From the NCBI GenBank assembly GCA_021160245.1, contig JAGHCW010000034.1, positions 1-42,706 of the forward strand: DNA of 42,706 nt, written 5' to 3'. The position numbers and the translations under genes were made by a program. Below, one piece after another: positions 29,506 to 42,257 of this stretch (position 1 is the stretch's first letter; each line of letters starts with the position of its first letter). The notes under the pieces were generated by a model. That model ran no database searches. It was not told the DNA's origin and was given only the letters and a program-made list of their open reading frames with translations. This DNA comes from a bacterium (lineage in GTDB: Bacteria > B130-G9).

Positions 29506-30589
29506 CCTCGAGACTGCGCATGGAATCTTGCATTACCCGTGCTTTTTGCCGGACGCAACTCGTGGCGTTGTGAGGTCGGTGGGCTCGGGCGATATAGCCT
29601 CGATCGGCGTGTCGGGCCTCATGGTCAACGCGCTTCATCTCTCAAGAAGGCCCGGGACGTCCGTCTTGGCCCGCTCGGGTGGAGTTCATGGATTCATGGG
29701 GTGGGATCGTCCTATCTCATCGGATTCTGGCGGATACCAAATCCATTCACTGATCTCCGAGGACGCCAAGCTCGGCTCAGTCTCCGATAAGGGCTTTGTT
29801 TACAGATTCAGCAGAAGTGAAGAGAAGCGAATTGTAACACCAGAGAAATCCATCAAATATCAGTTCGAGATCGGCTCTGACATCATGTTCTGCCTCGATG
29901 TCTGCACGCATCCCGATGATGGCGACGAGGCGCAGCTTTTGGGCTGCAAACGGACGGTTGAATGGGCCAAAAGATGCAAGATAGAGTTTGCATCGCGAGT
30001 CTCTCGGCTTGCTGAGGGCACGGCCCGACCGCTGCTCTTCGCCGTAGTTCAGGGCGGCGCCTCATCCGAGCTGAGAAGAATGTGTGTTAGCGAGCTGATG
30101 AACATTGGCTTTGACGGCTACGGGTTTGGTGGATGGCCGATTGATGAGGATGGCGGCCTGGTCGATGCGGTTGGAGAAGTTGCAGGTCTTCTACCGAATG
30201 GCACACCAAAATTCGCGCTCGGTATCGGGAAACCTGAGAGTCTCGTGAGTGCCTATCTAGCTGGCTATGGCATGTTGGATTGCTCCATTCCAACGCGCGA
30301 CGCCCGCAGGAAGCGGATTTTCGTTTTCTCGGATAGACCTAAGCGGATTTCGTTCGACGATTCGACATTCTATCACTATATATACCTTCAGGATAAGAAG
30401 CACTTGGCAGATGCTGGGCCCCTAGATGAAACCTGCGATTGTCCGTGCTGCAGACGATTCTCAAAGGCCTATTTATATCACCTCTTCAAGCTGGAAGACC
30501 CGCTTGCCTATCGCCTCGCCACAATTCACAACCTGCGATTCATGGTTCGCCTGACAGATGAGCTCCGCCGACGGAGTATCGCGCCTTGA
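29492..30589 (+). CDS. tgt: Queuine tRNA-ribosyltransferase family protein
   Basis: About 365 aa from the ATG at 29492, preceded by GAGAGG at seven bases and overlapping rsmI by 14; a TTG/GTG-type start at 29447 would extend into rsmI. It exchanges guanine for a 7-deazaguanine at the tRNA wobble position. SDSGGYQ gives general-acid D78, VVQGG is the substrate loop and LDCSIPTRDAR the nucleophile D263. The zinc site is CDCPCC with a later histidine in AYLYHLF. It is divergent: the usual TRNAR is TRDAR, and the N-terminus lacks the conserved bacterial GT-x-PVFMPVGT form. Placed by context in the ribosome/tRNA-modification operon. Confidence 0.88.
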   Translation: MRANSLETAHGILHYPCFLPDATRGVVRSVGSGDIASIGVSGLMVNALHLSRRPGTSVLARSGGVHGFMGWDRPISSDSGGYQIHSLISEDAKLGSVSDKGFVYRFSRSEEKRIVTPEKSIKYQFEIGSDIMFCLDVCTHPDDGDEAQLLGCKRTVEWAKRCKIEFASRVSRLAEGTARPLLFAVVQGGASSELRRMCVSELMNIGFDGYGFGGWPIDEDGGLVDAVGEVAGLLPNGTPKFALGIGKPESLVSAYLAGYGMLDCSIPTRDARRKRIFVFSDRPKRISFDDSTFYHYIYLQDKKHLADAGPLDETCDCPCCRRFSKAYLYHLFKLEDPLAYRLATIHNLRFMVRLTDELRRRSIAP

Positions 30590-31404
30590 GTGACCACGAG
30601 GCGGATGTTATCGGCCGGATTGTCGATAAGCTCCTTGAATCGAGAAAATACCGCAATATCTTCCGCCCGGCGCTTGAGAATGTCGCTAGATGGGCTTCGA
30701 AGCGATACCCGAGGCAAAGGGAAGCCGAAAAGGCCGCAAAGCGAAAGCTGCATCACGTCTATGGGGCCTATATGACGTCCGGGCAGCTGGCTAGAGTTGA
30801 AGAACTCGTCAAGGGCATTGAGGCCGCCGAATGCCCCGATGAAAAGGCTGTTTGCAGAGAAGTTCTCAAATGCCACGCCTCAACATGGGAGCGACTCGGC
30901 CACATCAAAGACATGTATCGAGACATAGCGGAGATTATCGGTCAACCGCGCAGCGTGCTCGAGCTTGCGTGCGGGTTGAATCCATTCGCGCGGCCTTTCA
31001 TGGGACTTGCGCCGGATGCATCGTACCTTTGCATTGACATAGACTGTCGCCTCATCTCGCAAGTTAAGCGTTTTCTGGCTCGATTGCCCGGCCGGAACGA
31101 GGCGCGATGTGGCGCTATCCTGTTGTCAGTTCCTGCCGACGAATGCGATGTAGTCTTTCTGCTCAAGACATTGCCCTGCCTCGAGCGGCAAGAGGCGGGC
31201 GCGTCGCTTCGGATTCTTAAGGCGTTGAACGCAACGAACGTCGTGGTCACTTTTCCAAGAAGGTCCCTTTCCGGGCGTTGCCGCGGCATGGACGGGCATT
31301 ATATGGGGATAATGGGGGACTTAATCAACGAGCTCGGATGGGAAATGAGCGAGTTGCGTTATCCACTTGAGACGGTCTATGTTTTGAAAACTCGCGCAAG
31401 ATGA
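30586..31404 (+). CDS. 16S rRNA (guanine-1405-N7)-methyltransferase family protein (FmrO/Sgm/Rmt type)
   Basis: 272 aa. The pattern of the FmrO family is followed from end to end: ESRKYRNIF near the N-terminus; AKRKLHHVYGAYMT; CHASTWERLGHIKDMY; the SAM loop LELACGLNPFARPFM (about residues 125-140); YLCIDIDCRLISQVKRF; VVFLLKTLPCLERQEAGAS (about 190-208); VVTFPRRSLSGRCRGMDGHY (about 222-241). Members methylate N7 of G1405 in 16S rRNA helix 44 and give high resistance to gentamicin/kanamycin-type aminoglycosides, in producers and in acquired form. Here it lies in a housekeeping operon, TTGA-coupled to tgt (4-base overlap), with GGAG nine bases before its TTG. Enzyme activity and target are inferred from family only. 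Confidence 0.9.
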   Translation: MSDHEADVIGRIVDKLLESRKYRNIFRPALENVARWASKRYPRQREAEKAAKRKLHHVYGAYMTSGQLARVEELVKGIEAAECPDEKAVCREVLKCHASTWERLGHIKDMYRDIAEIIGQPRSVLELACGLNPFARPFMGLAPDASYLCIDIDCRLISQVKRFLARLPGRNEARCGAILLSVPADECDVVFLLKTLPCLERQEAGASLRILKALNATNVVVTFPRRSLSGRCRGMDGHYMGIMGDLINELGWEMSELRYPLETVYVLKTRAR

Positions 31405-32726: not shown

Positions 32727-34109
32727 CTACATATCAAGATGACGTTGAATTGCGCTTTGCTGCCTCAGGGCGCCCAGTTCCCGCTTGAGCGTCTCGATAA
32801 GACAATGAAATGCTGGGTCCGCGATCATCTTTGCTCTTATCAACTTGTATGAGTGAATTACGGCGGCATGGCACATTCCGGAGAACTTCTTCCCGATTGA
32901 CGGATAAGAATCCCCGAGCATATCTCGGCTGAGGAACATCGCCACTTGCCTCGCTCGGACGATGCTTCTCGTCCTGTCGCGCGACACGAGCTTGGAAACA
33001 CCGATGCCGAAATATGATGCGACCTTGTCTTGTATTGCCTCGACTGTCAGCTCTTTCTTCCCTGATCCATTTCTGCCAAGCACGGCTTCTGCGATTTCGA
33101 GAGAAATGGGCGCCGTCTTGAGTTCGGAATAGCCCTTCAATTTCGTCAACATGCTCTCAAGCTGGCGAACGCTTGGGCATGACATCTCTGCAATATAGGT
33201 GGCAACTTCGTCCAGAAGCTCCATGTCGAGAAGCTCAGCCTTCTTCCTTAATATCCGAATCTTCATCCGGAACTCAGGAGGCGCAACGTCAATTACAAGT
33301 CCCGAGCTGAATCGCTCGATTAGTTTCGGCTTAACCGAAAAAAGCTCCTCCGGCAGCCGGTCACTGCTGATAACCACCTGGCGGCCTCTCTCCTGAAGCG
33401 CATTTATCGTATGAAAGAGCGCCTCCTGTGTGCTGGCCTTGCTCTGAACAAACTGGACATCGTCGATAAGCAGGACATCTTGCGTCCGATATCTTGCTCT
33501 AAAGCCGGCGGTCTGTTTCGTTGCTATCGACTCGAAGAACTCATTGGTGAAGTCCTCGGCCGTTTGATACAGAACCGAGAGCTCGCTGTGAGTCTTCCTC
33601 AGTGAGTTAGTTGTGGCGCATAGAAGATGCGTCTTACCTACACCGTGCTGGCCGTAAATATATAGCGGATTGAACTCACTCGCCGGCTGGCGAGCCACGC
33701 TCTGGCACGCTGAATAGGCAAACTCATTGCACTCTCCGGGGACAAAGCCATCAAACGCAAGGGCGAGGTTGCCGTTCGTTGGGTGTTGAGCAACAATCGC
33801 ACTCGGATGCTCAACCGCCCTCGAATGCCGAGAGCTCTTCTTCACAGGGACAACCAGCCTGGGCTTGTTTGCGTCCTGGACCTTGATCTCAACAGTCACT
33901 TCTCGGTTGCACGCGGCAGACGCTGCGACACGTATATAAGAAAGATAGTTGGCCATTACCCAGTCTCTATGGGAATCTGAGCCTACCGAGAGATGCAAGA
34001 CGCCTTTTTTATATCCCTCGCAGTTCATGCTACTTATCCAAGTCTGAAAGCTCTGCTTGTTGATCATTCGCTTTGCGCGCCTAAGGGTGCGACTCCAGAC
34101 ATCATTCAT
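32727..34109 (-). CDS. dnaA: DnaA replication initiator with altered DNA-recognition motif
   Basis: 460 aa from the ATG at 34109 (GGGAG ten bases upstream; an in-frame TTG at 34136 is less likely). Domain I: VWSRTLRRAKRMINKQSFQTW. AAA+ core: FNPLYIYGQHGVGKTHLL with K159, Walker B VLLIDDVQFV, sensor region VVISSDRLPEEL and IERFSSGLVIDVAPPEFRMK. Domain IV: VRARQVAMFLSRDMLGDSYPSIG is normal, including the arginine of the first recognition helix, but the signature normally read GGRDHTTVLHA is SGMCHAAVIHS (residues 410-420). The aspartate and both threonines that contact the DnaA box are replaced by C413, A415 and A416; only H414 remains. It initiates replication or is a divergent paralogue. Confidence 0.9.
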   Translation of the reverse strand: MNDVWSRTLRRAKRMINKQSFQTWISSMNCEGYKKGVLHLSVGSDSHRDWVMANYLSYIRVAASAACNREVTVEIKVQDANKPRLVVPVKKSSRHSRAVEHPSAIVAQHPTNGNLALAFDGFVPGECNEFAYSACQSVARQPASEFNPLYIYGQHGVGKTHLLCATTNSLRKTHSELSVLYQTAEDFTNEFFESIATKQTAGFRARYRTQDVLLIDDVQFVQSKASTQEALFHTINALQERGRQVVISSDRLPEELFSVKPKLIERFSSGLVIDVAPPEFRMKIRILRKKAELLDMELLDEVATYIAEMSCPSVRQLESMLTKLKGYSELKTAPISLEIAEAVLGRNGSGKKELTVEAIQDKVASYFGIGVSKLVSRDRTRSIVRARQVAMFLSRDMLGDSYPSIGKKFSGMCHAAVIHSYKLIRAKMIADPAFHCLIETLKRELGALRQQSAIQRHLDM

Positions 34110-34488
34110 TCTGACATGCTCCCACCCTATGCCCAAAAGGCAACCTCTGCGTCAAAGAAACCATTTGAAAACCTAACTGCGAGAAGTTCATTACCAACAC
34201 GACTAAAGGGGACACAACCCGGGAGATTTAGAAACCAACCCGGAAGAATAGGCCAACAAAAAGCAAAGGAAAACACCCTATATTGCTGATATGGGGCGAA
34301 ACATGAGCATGTTCCGACCCGCTTTCTCGAGCACTTGTTCTCATCATAATCACGATAATAACTTATGAAACGAGTCGGGATTGGTCAAGGGAATCACTTG
34401 AGAAATTTTACTAGCTTCTCTATACGACAAGGATCGATTTGTGTCATTGCAACATATTTGGTATTAGTGATCTGCCCAACAAGACTTT
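34110..34488. other. 379-bp divergent region between dnaA and the next gene
   Basis: AT-rich in its centre (34230-34480). No cluster of TTATCCACA-type boxes was found on either strand. On the minus strand TTGACC is followed after 17 bases by the weak TAAGTT, a possible dnaA promoter. The region would be a natural place for an origin next to dnaA, but nothing in it proves that. Confidence 0.4.
34398..34426 (+). promoter_or_regulatory. Putative promoter TTGAGA-N17-TATACG
   Basis: TTGAGA (34398-34403, 5 of 6) and TATACG (34421-34426, 4 of 6) are exactly 17 bases apart. Initiation near 34433 would give a 56-base leader to the two-TM protein gene at 34489. Confidence 0.5.
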
Positions 34489-35886
34489 GTGATCATCTGC
34501 TTTATTTACAACGGGAAGCCCGCAATCGTCGTGAAACTAAGATCGTCTCTGACAATAATACTCCCTCTGCTTTTGGCCGCCTCGATTGGAACAGTGGTTC
34601 TATACTTCTCGATAGGTTTCTCGAAAGCAATCGTCATCAACGGCGCCCACTATCCACCCGAATCAAAGCATTTCCCCATTACGATCCCGAATGTCCGAGA
34701 CCTATCCCACCAAAAATCTCAAATTATCCAGTCGGAATTCTCACACCTATTTGAGATATTCTTCTCGGTTCCGCCCGATACACAGATTGCTCTGAGAGAG
34801 GGTCAGGAAATCGAGGCAATCTGCAAGCTCTATGAGCTTCGCGACAGGCCAAATCTCCTAAAGATGAGGACGACCCCCAAAATTAAGGACGCTTTCCCCG
34901 GAGCCGTAGTGGTCGCAAAGAAGTATGTTGAGATGAATGCGTCAACAAAAGTTAAGATGCTTGCAGGCGGCGCGCTTGTGGATTATGACACCCCTCTTGC
35001 ATACATTGCCGGCCAGACTTTCACCGCGCTGAATGACGAACTCTGCGCAATCGATGTTCTCTTTTCCAGCTATGCTCGAGAGTGTAGAGGAACGCTCATA
35101 TTTCATCTCGTGCGGAAGAAGGATACAGGCAAGGACATTCGCACGATTAGCGTTGACGCGAGCCAGGTCAGTGATATGGAACTGGTCAGCTTTGAGTTCG
35201 AGCCGCTTAAGAACTCGAGGTTTGCAAGCTACGGCTTCTTCCTGACGTCAGAGGACATGGAACCCGACAGCTCACCCACGGTGTTGATCACGCAGACGAA
35301 TCTTGAGGTGAATGGCAACGCCTGGATTAACTACAAGTGGAAACCTCTCGATCTCTGCTTCAGGGCAAGATACTGCTCCGCCACGCAAATGCCAATCCTG
35401 CCGCCAAAGAAGGGCGTAATATCCCAGCTTATCGACATAGACCTCAGCGAGTATGAGCCCATAAGAATGGGCCAACCTCACTATCTTGGTCTTGGTGAGG
35501 CCGGCCACATCGGACTCTTTCAATTCCCTGCGGTCGCGGGTTCCGCCGCCAAGTTCTATCTTTTCGTGGTCGAGCTGAATGGCACGGCCGTCTCCTGCAA
35601 CCAGTTCAGCTGCAAACACTCTGCCGGCTCGCTGCCAGCTACCGCGAATCACGTTGCAAAGACCCTGATGATCGATAAACCTCCCGGCGTCAAGATGAAA
35701 TACATTGTCTGGCTTGCATGCTTGCTCCTGTTCTTGCTCGTGATTTTCGTCAACTGGCTTGGGCTTCCGGATAAATCGGCAGAGACTGGCAGAGCGGAGC
35801 ATCGCGACAACCATCCTCCAAAAGGAGAGCCCAACGGTGAGCCCGAGTCTTCTACAATATATGACGACCAGAACAATCACAGTTAG
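34489..35886 (+). CDS. Two-TM protein with a large extracytoplasmic beta-sandwich domain
   Basis: Up to 465 aa; GTG at 34489, or GTG at 34528/34531, none with a strong ribosome site. One N-terminal segment (LTIILPLLLAASIGTVVLYF) and one near residue 405-425 (YIVWLACLLLFLLVIFVNWL) enclose about 360 extracytoplasmic residues. These include AGQTFTALNDELCAIDVLFSSYA, a beta-strand-rich passage of the galactose-binding-like type I have seen on surface-glycan membrane proteins, then GTLIFHLVRKKDTG. The tail is polar, acidic and cytoplasmic. I do not recognise a named family. It is followed 15 bases later by the YchF-type gene and may share its transcript. Confidence 0.72.
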   Translation: MIICFIYNGKPAIVVKLRSSLTIILPLLLAASIGTVVLYFSIGFSKAIVINGAHYPPESKHFPITIPNVRDLSHQKSQIIQSEFSHLFEIFFSVPPDTQIALREGQEIEAICKLYELRDRPNLLKMRTTPKIKDAFPGAVVVAKKYVEMNASTKVKMLAGGALVDYDTPLAYIAGQTFTALNDELCAIDVLFSSYARECRGTLIFHLVRKKDTGKDIRTISVDASQVSDMELVSFEFEPLKNSRFASYGFFLTSEDMEPDSSPTVLITQTNLEVNGNAWINYKWKPLDLCFRARYCSATQMPILPPKKGVISQLIDIDLSEYEPIRMGQPHYLGLGEAGHIGLFQFPAVAGSAAKFYLFVVELNGTAVSCNQFSCKHSAGSLPATANHVAKTLMIDKPPGVKMKYIVWLACLLLFLLVIFVNWLGLPDKSAETGRAEHRDNHPPKGEPNGEPESSTIYDDQNNHS

Positions 35887-37035: not shown

Positions 37036-38901
37036 TCATTCGATCTGGAACGTGGTAGTCGAAATGTCGCCGATGGGGCGGAAGCTAGCGGTCAGCGAGA
37101 GCGCGGCGGCGAATGTGTACGTGCCTGTCGGGACGAATTCGCTTATCTCGAATTGGAGGATGTCGATGGAGGTCGGATCGAGGGCTTGCGATAAGAGCAT
37201 GGAGGGGAGATAGGGCGCGAGGGAGGTTGTGAGGCCGTCGGGGGTGAGGCAGAGGAGCGTGCCGTCGGGCATTATGAAGCCGGCGTAGATATCAACCCAC
37301 TGGGGCGTGCCGCCGTTCTCGACCGTGATTGAGGCGCGGAGTGTGTCGCCGGGGCGGAAGGGCCGCGCGTCCTGCATCTCAGCTTGTGCGTCGCTTCCGT
37401 CCGATGCTTCGCAATCGATCGTCGGGGGCGTGGCGGAATAGTGGTAGCCGATGTCAACTGTGTCCGCATCGAACTCGTCGTCCGTCCGCGTCGTGAGGGT
37501 ATTCATGCCGATGATTGAGGCGCTCGTTGAGCCGGCGTCTATGCACGGGCTATCAGCCTCCTGACCCGCATCGATCGCCGATAGATAATAATCGCCCATC
37601 GGCCCCGAAACGAACAGAGGGTCGGCTATGAAATTGCCATCGCCCTCAAACTCATCCTGCAGGCAAGAGTGATCGATCTCATACGGCCAGTCATACCACT
37701 CTCCTTCCCAACTGCCATGCACTTCTTGGTGCCTATCGAGCCAGATCGCGTTTTCTCGGAAAATACTGTCTTGTAGTCGAACGCGGCACCACCCGCCCGT
37801 TTTAGAGGATACATCTTCATTGAGAGTGCTTCCCTCATATCCGGCTCGGCTGCCTCCACGATTATTGGTTATCGTGCATCTTCGAATGACGATGCGCTCG
37901 TCATCGCCCTCATCGGCTGCATCAAATTGCCTCAAAGAACTCCGACGCACATCGGACACTTCGGCCGTCTCAATGAGAATCCCATCTCCCATGACATTGC
38001 CCGCAATAAGGTTGTTCTCGAGGTGCAGAGTTGAAATCGAGGAGTGAATGAAGTAATAACTGCTGTATAGGCAGAAGACGCTCTTTCGGGCCGTATTATT
38101 CTCGATAACTGAATTGCGAATGACGTTGTATCTTGGCCTCAAAAAGAACGTGTACTGGCCCTCATTCCCACGCATAACGCACCTATCCATATTGCAGGCA
38201 GACGAGCAAACCTGAGTTCCCTGATTCCCTTCCAGGAGTGTGTCATTCAGAGATAGATAGTTCGCAGTCTCAAGGATGGCGGTAGCCGTGTTTCCGGTTA
38301 TTACAGAACGTCGTATGATCAATCCATCCACGGACAAGCAGTTCTTTTCGTTTACGTTGCTATCAATCGTGCAGTCTTCAATTACAAGATCACCGTATTT
38401 CGCACCATTATAATCCCCGCTGACCGTTGAACTGCCCCTGTTATCTACCAACACGCAATTCCTGATGGTAACATTGCCGCCACTGAAATGTATCGCTGGT
38501 TCTCTATGGGAGCGCCGAATACACATATTCTCAATGACGTTGATTGACATGGATGCACAATCGATGATCCCCCCCATCCACTCTCCGTCCAATACTGTGC
38601 ATTCCGGACCTTCACCTATAAGGTTATGATAGCTCCTTAAAACAATAGGATATATCTCACCATTTGTGCTTGGACCGTATATGCCATTTGCGAGATTTAT
38701 TGTAGCCGGAGTTGCTCTGCTTGGATTGGTCGCGCTTATCGCATGAGTGATTGTCTTCCAGGCATCCTCGGCTATCAGGCCCCCGTTGGCATTGTCGCCA
38801 TTCGTGCCGTCAACGTAGTAGTCGATGGCGAGGCTGGAAATTGGGGACAATGTCGCCCAGAGCAGGGCGAATAACAAAAGCAAGAATGGACTTCGAGTCA
38901 T
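37036..38901 (-). CDS. Secreted right-handed beta-helix protein with conserved C-terminal module
   Basis: 621 aa; GGAGGA lies eight bases before the ATG. The signal peptide MTRSPFLLLLFALLWATLSP ends at SLA. The mature chain starts IDYYVDGTNGDNANGG then AWKTITHAISA (DUF1565-like). Residues 90-400 are a ladder of NCxxxxN-type turns (IRNCVLVDNRG, IEDCTIDSN, IRRSVITGN), i.e. a parallel beta-helix of pectate-lyase/NosD type. The last 105 residues (PFRPGDTLRASITVENGG onward) form a separate beta-sandwich, of which the final 62 are repeated at 85 percent identity in the partial gene at 42518-42706. Inferred: a surface protein; polysaccharide lyase activity not shown. Confidence 0.9.
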   Translation of the reverse strand: MTRSPFLLLLFALLWATLSPISSLAIDYYVDGTNGDNANGGLIAEDAWKTITHAISATNPSRATPATINLANGIYGPSTNGEIYPIVLRSYHNLIGEGPECTVLDGEWMGGIIDCASMSINVIENMCIRRSHREPAIHFSGGNVTIRNCVLVDNRGSSTVSGDYNGAKYGDLVIEDCTIDSNVNEKNCLSVDGLIIRRSVITGNTATAILETANYLSLNDTLLEGNQGTQVCSSACNMDRCVMRGNEGQYTFFLRPRYNVIRNSVIENNTARKSVFCLYSSYYFIHSSISTLHLENNLIAGNVMGDGILIETAEVSDVRRSSLRQFDAADEGDDERIVIRRCTITNNRGGSRAGYEGSTLNEDVSSKTGGWCRVRLQDSIFRENAIWLDRHQEVHGSWEGEWYDWPYEIDHSCLQDEFEGDGNFIADPLFVSGPMGDYYLSAIDAGQEADSPCIDAGSTSASIIGMNTLTTRTDDEFDADTVDIGYHYSATPPTIDCEASDGSDAQAEMQDARPFRPGDTLRASITVENGGTPQWVDIYAGFIMPDGTLLCLTPDGLTTSLAPYLPSMLLSQALDPTSIDILQFEISEFVPTGTYTFAAALSLTASFRPIGDISTTTFQIE

Positions 38902-38970: not shown

Positions 38971-41900
38971 CTATTCACTCGGCGTTATAGGTATCTTGAA
39001 CAATGCTGGCCGGCAATTGTGCCTCGTGGCAACAATCCTTATATGGCCCGATTGAACATCATACAAACCCGGCATTTTCACTAGACCATTCTCGTCCGTC
39101 ATCCCGACCCAAGACCGATTCCATTGCCAATTCTTGCCATCATTTTTCCTGTACCCTTGAGAAAATGTAACAATAGCATAGGGAGCACCATCGTATTCAT
39201 TCTCATTGTATACTGCATTCTCGCCCATTGTGACATATATATCCTGTTCATAGGCAAGGTCTTCCGGATGATGGTAGTCGGTGGGAACCGGATCTATATG
39301 CAAATACAAGGGATATTTAGTCCTAATGTCCAAAGCCGAATCGCCAATCCACATCTGCTGGTTTGCCAATTGGCCTGTCCATTGATATCCCCATTCGTTC
39401 CAGGGCTTTTCGTTGCTCCCCGGTTGCATCGATTTGAATCTATAATCCATTACGTAATACCATGTGATGGCGCCAAGCCTTATCTGCCAATGATCACAGT
39501 CTGGGCCCGGCCAGATGGCCTCTATAAGGCGTCGATAGCAGCTCTGCCAGATGAACGCAGCCACGCCGCCGTGGCCATACCATGCTACGGCACCTCCCGA
39601 ATCGGGCTCTTCATAGCGCCGGCCGACCGTCATCTCACTGATCGGGCACCCGAATACTTCCGCGCGATCATTGAATGCGTTCACATCCCTAGGCAAATAA
39701 CACTCCTCCGCGCTGTAATGATCATAGCAATCGCAGGGGTCGCCGGAGGGATAATCCCAGACGCCGATGTCGCGCCAATGGCACACCCAATGACCCCACC
39801 AGACGCCATTCTTGTCCACCCAATCTCCGATTTCGTCACCGGTGCCGACCTGCTTCATTGCTCCCGTAAGGCAGAACATGCCGAATACAACGGGGGTTTT
39901 ATAACCATTGCGCAGAATCTCATCCTCCTCAGCGTCCTTTCCGAGTATATACTTGTCCGTGGTGAAATCCTCGCCACATATATAGTAGCACTCTCTATGT
40001 GTCCCATCGGCAATTGGATCACCACAGGGACAACCCAGATTCTCGCCATGCCTTTCAAAAGAAGATTTTAGACACCAAACACATCCAGGAGTCTTCGCAG
40101 CATTGATTCGATTCCAACATGGAAACATGCACTTCTGACCATGCGTCACCCAGAACATCACGCCAAGTCCGTCGGTCCAGCCGTTTACTCTATAGTCCAT
40201 TAATGTGCATGTAGTCGGGATTCCATCAGCGCTGTTAAATTCCTTCCAGAAGTAGGGGTATTGATAACTTGGACCCGGGTCCCGACCGTTGATGACAGCC
40301 GAATTGCCCATCGACGCATCTTCGGGGAAATCATCGCCGTCGTTCATCCCGTCGAACTCGTGTTCGCCATTGATGATCGTGGCGTCGGCAGGGGAACTGT
40401 CGAGGCCATCTATCATCTCCCACATCTTGTATGCGAGCGTTATGTATTTCCACCATTCCCACCTTTTCTTCTGCTCATATTCTGTGGTGGCAGTGCCGGG
40501 TATCATATCGCCGCCCTTGAAACCGACTATATTGACCTTCTCCAACCAGTGCCGGCCCTGCAGTGGTTTCGCATCGGTGGCATAGCGTATAGTGCCCCAA
40601 TTCTCATCGCTTGTGAAATCATTCTGTTGATAGACTGCATAACCCAACGAGCGCAGTGCGACCTGGGTCACCTCGTCGTTGCCTTCATCCGCATCCTCGC
40701 CACTTTGCCCGGTGATCCTCGACACCATGACATCCATGCCAGGGGCGCCGGACAATCCGAATGAATAACCGGAATCCCCCTGATACCAGGTATCAAGTCC
40801 ATCACCCCAGTAGTAGTAGCCAGCCCTCCCAGGCAGATCATCCCAATCATACCATGAGACAAATCGGGAAGAGACGCTTATGTTGCCATTGCAGTCCGGT
40901 CCGGAGACGATTGTGCTGCTGCTTCCGGGGCTGTCAACATCTCCAACGAGAAGCACAAAGAGAGTTGGTTCATTGGCATAGCAGGTTTGTATCTGATTGC
41001 GTATCCAGTCCCGCTGCGCGTGTCTGGCCGCCCTGTCGTTCTCATAGCCTGCCTGACTGAGCTTCGGGAGAGTTGACGGCGTTATCGTGAAATCTCTCTC
41101 AGCAATTATTCGCTTCGTTCGAAGGCCCTCGAAATCGTGCCAATCCAGCAGATTGTGGAGCGCCTCGTTGTTCCAATAATCCTCAGCGATTATGGCAAGG
41201 AGGCGCGTGCCCTCAGGAAGCGTGGATTCAAGGTCGAGTGATTCGTAATTCATTATCGCTTCTTCTAGGTAGCCGGCGAGCATTGCGTCAACTTCCTGCG
41301 GAGCGCTATCGAGTGTATTGATTGTGCTGATCGAGCCATAGGATAACGTGACAGTTATTGAATTATACGCCGTGACTGTCGCGTCTGTTGGGTTGAATTG
41401 AACCGGCAGAACATCGAGGTGAACGCATCGTATCCCCCCATGTATCACGGGCTTGGAAATCGCGGCGCAGACACCGGGGAAATCATCATCTACTGCATAT
41501 ATGACCTCGTCCTTCAGGAACTCCAGGGGCCGCAAGTGCATAAACGAGTCCGTCTGCTGAGCAGGCATGGCCATAACCTCACTCTCCGTCGTTGCGCCCG
41601 TCGCCTCAATAGTGATTATCACATCTCTCTCGTGATTCACAGCCAAAATAAGAGGGATGATCGGCAGACTGGGGCGCCCCGGATACATGGTCATTTCTGC
41701 GCCTTTTATCGCCACCCAATGAAATAGCTGGGAGCTTGCAGTTGCCGGAGATATTTGGACGGTGTTTATCGTGGCCTGTATCACAACGGACACAGTGCTG
41801 GAGGTAACCATGTTAATCTCAAACCATTGAGTTGACTCGGTTGCGCCGCCGCCACTGAACAGAATAGGCGCGTCGATGATCTGAGCCTTTGGCGTTGGCT

Positions 41901-42089
41901 GAGCGGGACGCTCCTTGTGCTTTCCTAGGAGGATCGTTCTGCTGCGATGTGCCTTGCCGGACCACACGCGATTATCGCCCCCCCCCCGCCAGAGTCGGCG
42001 TATGCGAGGGACGATGACCAGACTAGAAGACAGGCAAAGATAGTGATGCAGATAAGACAATTCAGTTTCCATAGATGCGCTCTTGACAT
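38971..42089 (-). CDS. C25 (gingipain)-like secreted peptidase, frame broken by a G10 tract
   Basis: The ATG at 42089 has TGGAGAG six bases upstream and encodes a signal peptide (MSRAHLWKLN, then LICITIFACLLVWSSSLAYA-DSGG). A run of ten G (41978-41987) then shifts the frame and the peptide stops at 41925. The remaining 1000 residues are open in the adjacent frame down to 38971. Eleven or eight G would join the two. The body has C25 landmarks: FVLLVGDVDSPGS, GMDVMVSRITG, the catalytic-His region FWVTHGQ, FGMFCLTG for the catalytic Cys, and GGAVAWYGHGG. His and Cys are 90 residues apart and separated by a cysteine-rich insert, further apart than in gingipains. The last 90 residues are a beta-sandwich (ENGLVKMPGLYDV). 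Most likely a phase-variable or frameshifted surface protease. Confidence 0.82.
41978..41987 (-). repeat. Homopolymeric G10 tract just after a signal peptide
   Basis: On the coding strand GGC is followed by ten G and then CGATAAT. The tract falls at codons about 35-38 of the C25-like gene, right behind the signal-peptidase site. With ten G the product ends after 54 residues; with eleven or eight it continues for more than 1000. Confidence 0.85.
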
Positions 42090-42257
42090 AATGTACTCTC
42101 CAGATTTGCTCAAGAATAACGAATGACAAGCAGGACAAATCGCCGCGAATGTAGTGGCGGGCAAAGCGGCGGCGTATTTGCTCGCCCGCGTCACAAAGGC
42201 CGGTTCAGTCGCATCCAGTTTCCCCCTGAAATTGCAGAGCTACGTTCTCAAGAAAGA

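Follow-up and report, generated by a model that had tools for sequence, protein, structure and literature searches.

An apparently remodelled recognition helix in the only DnaA found in Coatesbacteria genomes

The DnaA protein encoded in the window, i.e. the whole analysed stretch of 42,706 nucleotides from the bacterial assembly GCA_021160245.1 (contig JAGHCW010000034.1), combines an ordinary ATPase part with a DNA-recognition helix in which several residues that read the DnaA box are replaced. Since it is the only DnaA found in its genome, it is most likely the chromosomal replication initiator of a lineage of Candidatus Coatesbacteria, a poorly known group of bacteria. We lean towards the view that this sole DnaA still reads the TTA half of its box, while its reading of the TnCACA half is changed or relaxed.

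The dnaA gene occupies positions 32727..34109 on the minus strand (34109..32727) and encodes, from ATG to stop, a protein of 460 amino acids. This protein passes the NCBIfam profile TIGR00362 over its full length (419.7 bits, with the cut-off at 343.9; residues 5-445), and all three Pfam domains of DnaA are matched in the usual succession DnaA_N, Bac_DnaA and Bac_DnaA_C. Domain I (DnaA_N, PF11638, E=1.3e-11) comprises residues 2-64 (33918..34106, minus), the AAA+ ATPase domain III (Bac_DnaA, PF00308, E=1.9e-55) residues 117-274 (33288..33761, minus) and domain IV (Bac_DnaA_C, PF08299, E=4.6e-22) residues 356-423 (32841..33044, minus). The initial annotation had described the ATPase motifs as intact, and the translation indeed contains Walker A (GQHGVGKTH), Walker B (LLIDD), the box VII arginine (ERF) and the sensor II arginine (SVRQLE), all of which line up with the motifs of solved DnaAs. 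An AlphaFold2 model built from ten sequences is confident across domains I, III and IV, with a pLDDT of about 85-90 around the recognition helix, and it predicts a normal fold for domain IV. The modelled AAA+ part superimposes on domain III of B. subtilis DnaA (8bv3_A) with a Z score of 30.9 and an rmsd of 1.7 over 235 aligned residues. The ATPase and oligomerisation machinery of the protein is ordinary.

The gene that adjoins dnaA in divergent orientation (34489-35886, plus strand) is without a Pfam match. A similar sequence adjoins dnaA in two of the relatives (G001 and G002), and a well-conserved non-coding block at about 34420-34535 precedes the gene start. At 30586-31404 (plus strand), next to the gene for TGT (queuine tRNA-ribosyltransferase), the window encodes a full-length match to the FmrO rRNA methyltransferase family (PF07091, E=1.3e-46), a family that includes aminoglycoside-resistance methyltransferases. 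At 38971-42138 (minus strand) lies the gene for a large protein that matches Propeptide_C25 and, weakly, peptidase C25 (a gingipain-like family); a beta-helix protein is encoded beside it (37036-38901).

The unusual part of this DnaA is the recognition helix of domain IV, for which we use the numbering of E. coli DnaA (PDB 1J1V). The alignment on this structure confirms what the initial annotation had noticed, namely that SGMCHAAVIHS takes the place of GGRDHTTVLHA, with the aspartate changed to cysteine, both threonines changed to alanine, and the histidine and the equivalent of R399 kept. The complete set of changes relative to E. coli is G430S, R432M, D433C, T435A, T436A and L438I, and H434, V437 and H439 are retained, as are R399, R407 and P423. 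R399 corresponds to Arg379, whose codon lies at 32973..32975 (minus strand). In the AlphaFold2 model, the predicted recognition helix comprises residues 414-430 (32820..32870, minus) and starts at the kept histidine that equals H434. The altered stretch Met412-Cys413-(His414)-Ala415-Ala416, equivalent to R432-D433-(H434)-T435-T436, is encoded at 32862..32876 (minus), and the same change is found in the three relatives.

The base-specific positions of DnaA are 399, 423, 432-435 and 438-439 (PMC5043019). Among these eight, the residues at 432, 433 and 435 clearly differ, and L438I is a conservative substitution. The claim that most of the contact residues are replaced is therefore too broad with three of the eight listed positions clearly changed, but the core of the recognition helix is altered. 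In E. coli, residues 434-451 read TnCACA, whereas in the minor groove R399 recognises the TTA half, and the exchange T435M renders the protein defective in box binding (PMC5742627). The changes in the window DnaA cluster in the helix responsible for reading the 3' part TnCACA, with the reader of TTA retained.

The relatives available for comparison are three genomes of one GTDB family (G001-G003), two of which are represented by records named Candidatus Coatesbacteria (L041, L042). The alignment of domain IV in relatives, which the initial annotation had proposed as a check, revealed the same substituted helix in all three, so that the signature SG[ML][CS]HAA..HS is common to the four genomes of the phylum examined. 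The identity of the relatives' DnaAs to that of the window over the whole protein is only 51-53%. The standard residues D433-H434-[TS]435-[TS]436 are absent throughout, with C-H-A-A in the window and C/S-H-A-A in the relatives. In 29 DnaAs from 29 other bacterial families, Asp433 is present in 28, and Thr or Ser occupies both position 435 and position 436 in all 29; none of these 29 proteins has the Coatesbacteria signature. Since the signature is present in 4/4 genomes of the phylum and in 0/29 outside families, its occurrence is, on the alignments, beyond chance, and the recognition helix has evidently been remodelled and then retained across three genera. Another surveyed family (L072) has a single DnaA with Ala433 in which both threonines are kept (GGKAHTTVMRS).

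Compared with canonical DnaA (E. coli, 1J1V; B. subtilis, 8btg), the Coatesbacteria proteins share domains I, III and IV, the ATPase motifs, the position of the recognition helix and the residues R399, R407, P423, H434 and H439, but differ by R432M, D433C/S, T435A and T436A, which are fixed in the clade. The exact combination of residues is new to our survey. However, the type of change is not unique, since the helices of several Desulfobacterota depart from the standard at the same sites. A scan of related loci yielded six such DnaAs (L043, L044, L046-L049) with YHAT or RSHA[AS] helices, in which Asp433 is lost and position 435 is alanine, as in Coatesbacteria. Unlike the Coatesbacteria proteins, they have one residue fewer ahead of the helix and a changed P423, and the identity is only about 28-30%; several also have a Walker B glutamate in place of the first aspartate. 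Four of these genomes have no other DnaA, and in a fifth the variant is the sole strong match (the cultured Desulfobacter vibrioformis, L047, is among these five), whereas in the sixth (L049) another match exceeds the cut-off. No convincing box clusters were found in the Ala435 Desulfobacterota genomes. Close canonical pairs in two of them resembled each other and were considered as origins, but were rejected because they apparently lie within coding DNA.

Two further groups are informative about what such substitutions might mean for the box. Ala435 occurs occasionally in epsilon- and deltaproteobacteria, and in Epsilonproteobacteria variation at 435 and 438-439 is linked to a shifted box preference with T at position 5; unlike the Coatesbacteria proteins, these DnaAs keep D433-H434 and use near-canonical boxes (PMC5043019). 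A precedent is Thermotoga maritima, in whose DnaA only the arginine is conserved among these reading residues (PMC7561715) and whose box is ACCTACCAC (PMC10316083). Like the Coatesbacteria protein, it is a sole DnaA with non-standard reading residues and the arginine kept, but its residues are RSHPVVVDS, it is only distantly related to the Coatesbacteria protein, and the box is known for T. maritima only. Since T. maritima pairs such a DnaA with a non-standard box, a changed box in Coatesbacteria is credible. The recognition of a different origin sequence, as suggested by the initial annotation, is therefore plausible by analogy and is compatible with everything that we found. Under this model, ATP-DnaA would still dock via domain IV, and R399, R407 and P423 would read the 5' TTA part and grip the backbone. 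In the major groove, the 3' half (TnCACA in E. coli) would be read differently or less strictly, since the protein lacks R432, D433, T435 and T436. With the 5' readers kept and the 3' reading altered, the cognate boxes would be expected to have a TTA-like 5' half, as canonical boxes do, but another 3' half.

The search for oriC covered selected stretches of this genome (about 307 kb) and of the relatives (220 kb), namely contigs with dnaA, dnaN, rsmG-parA-parB, rpmH-rnpA, gyrB or relatively close canonical boxes. Within these about 525 kb of Coatesbacteria sequence, we detected no oriC, no origin-like intergenic 9-mer cluster and no alternative box. Applied to other phyla (L060, L063, L065, L066, L073), the same 9-mer cluster scan does detect clusters of the TTATCCACA type and therefore works when an origin is present. 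As all four genomes are drafts, the Coatesbacteria origin could lie in an assembly gap. On one of the contigs with rpmH (L115, 17449-18084; G002 contig 164), a single frame apparently joins rnpA and a yidD-like segment right after rpmH, as judged by eye; this may reflect either a gene fusion or an artefact of the assembly. The GC-skew analysis that the initial annotation had recommended for finding the origin was run, but the skew runs irregularly along most of this genome's long contigs and placed no origin. In one relative, the 40 kb around dnaA have a consistent skew, and a skew V near purS/rsmG on contig 23 of G002 may only mirror gene strand. Origin-proximal segregation looks ordinary, since a parS-like TGTTTCACGTGAAACA precedes parA in the relatives.

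In this genome, TTATNCACA occurs 68 times compared to 62 times for the reversed control (p=0.66), and these sites form no tight cluster. Two TTWTNCACA sites within 30 bases of each other occur in 22 of 37 other genomes and are missing from 15, but occur in none of the four Coatesbacteria genomes (Fisher p=0.04), although the control pattern for this test also yields pairs in some genomes. If dense clusters alone are considered (8/37 other genomes), the contrast vanishes (p=0.57), and the missing pairs speak weakly for a different box. In the about 525 kb of Coatesbacteria sequence, in which the origin was not located, the T. maritima box has one site compared to four for the reversed word. All variants of the 3' half anchored on TTA were scored and gave nothing convincing in this sequence with regard to excess over the reversed word and close pairs. 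Repeated words common to the upstream regions of dnaA were absent at a length of 9 bases and hardly above shuffles at 8 bases. A candidate box, TTATTTACA, lies about 400 bases upstream of dnaA (34502..34510, plus strand), with one mismatch to TTATNCACA, and is found at the same place in three genomes. Since the word class TTATNTACA is not enriched in the about 525 kb, we regard this site as a lead only.

The initial annotation had considered a second DnaA with another job and had suggested looking for another dnaA in the same genome. A search of the whole draft genome (94.8% complete) found exactly one Bac_DnaA_C domain and one TIGR00362 match above the cut-off, and each of the three relatives also has one Bac_DnaA_C domain, within the limits of four drafts, two of the relatives being only 83-86% complete. 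Weak second TIGR00362 matches in the Coatesbacteria genomes are under the cut-off and lack domain IV. Two DnaA genes do occur in one genome, as in the surveyed genome G026 with two strong matches, but given the single Bac_DnaA_C domain here and in each relative, a specialised paralogue next to a canonical DnaA elsewhere is very improbable. That an assembly or frame error has garbled domain IV is hardly credible, even for a draft genome, since the same substitutions are present in three independent assemblies of other genera.

The remaining alternatives concern the function of this DnaA. The sole initiator might still recognise near-canonical TTATNCACA boxes with lower affinity or selectivity, supported by R399, H434, P423, phosphate contacts and a cooperative assembly of ATP-DnaA on degenerate boxes. 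Canonical binding may survive because H434, R399 and P423 are kept, together with R407 and H439, and the one-mismatch box at the same upstream place in three genomes fits this idea. Nevertheless, we consider it rather unlikely, as R432, D433, T435 and T436 are replaced together and fixed in the clade, already T435M is defective in E. coli (PMC5742627), and canonical box clusters were not found in the searched sequence. It is less likely still, and in our opinion improbable, that DnaA is no longer the essential initiator, so that the helix has drifted or been redirected to regulation and replication starts otherwise, as in some cyanobacteria. DnaA-independent cyanobacteria possess a DnaA but can replicate without it, and their GC skew is irregular (PMC7198777). 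The irregular skew observed here resembles this situation, and in addition dnaA is not located beside dnaN and an origin-like box cluster was not found at dnaA. However, cyanobacterial DnaAs without an initiator role still bind a normal oriC (PMC7198777). Moreover, the Coatesbacteria helix is conserved across genera and not drifting, the AAA+ motifs are intact, one relative has the consistent skew around dnaA mentioned above, and a Rep_3-type replacement initiator was found in none of the four genomes. We therefore prefer the reading of an initiator with a retained TTA half and a changed or relaxed 3' half.

Few protein-DNA codes in bacteria are as conserved as that between DnaA and the DnaA box, to which T. 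maritima is the standard exception. We tentatively propose that the Coatesbacteria lineage has swapped the near-universal TTATNCACA origin code via its fixed M/L-C/S-H-A-A helix, and that an independent swap may have occurred in the Desulfobacterota with Ala435. If true, a change of reading residues that is fixed across a whole lineage would represent a natural experiment on the joint change of an essential initiator and the numerous sites that it has in the genome, and origin finders that assume TTATNCACA may fail in such lineages.
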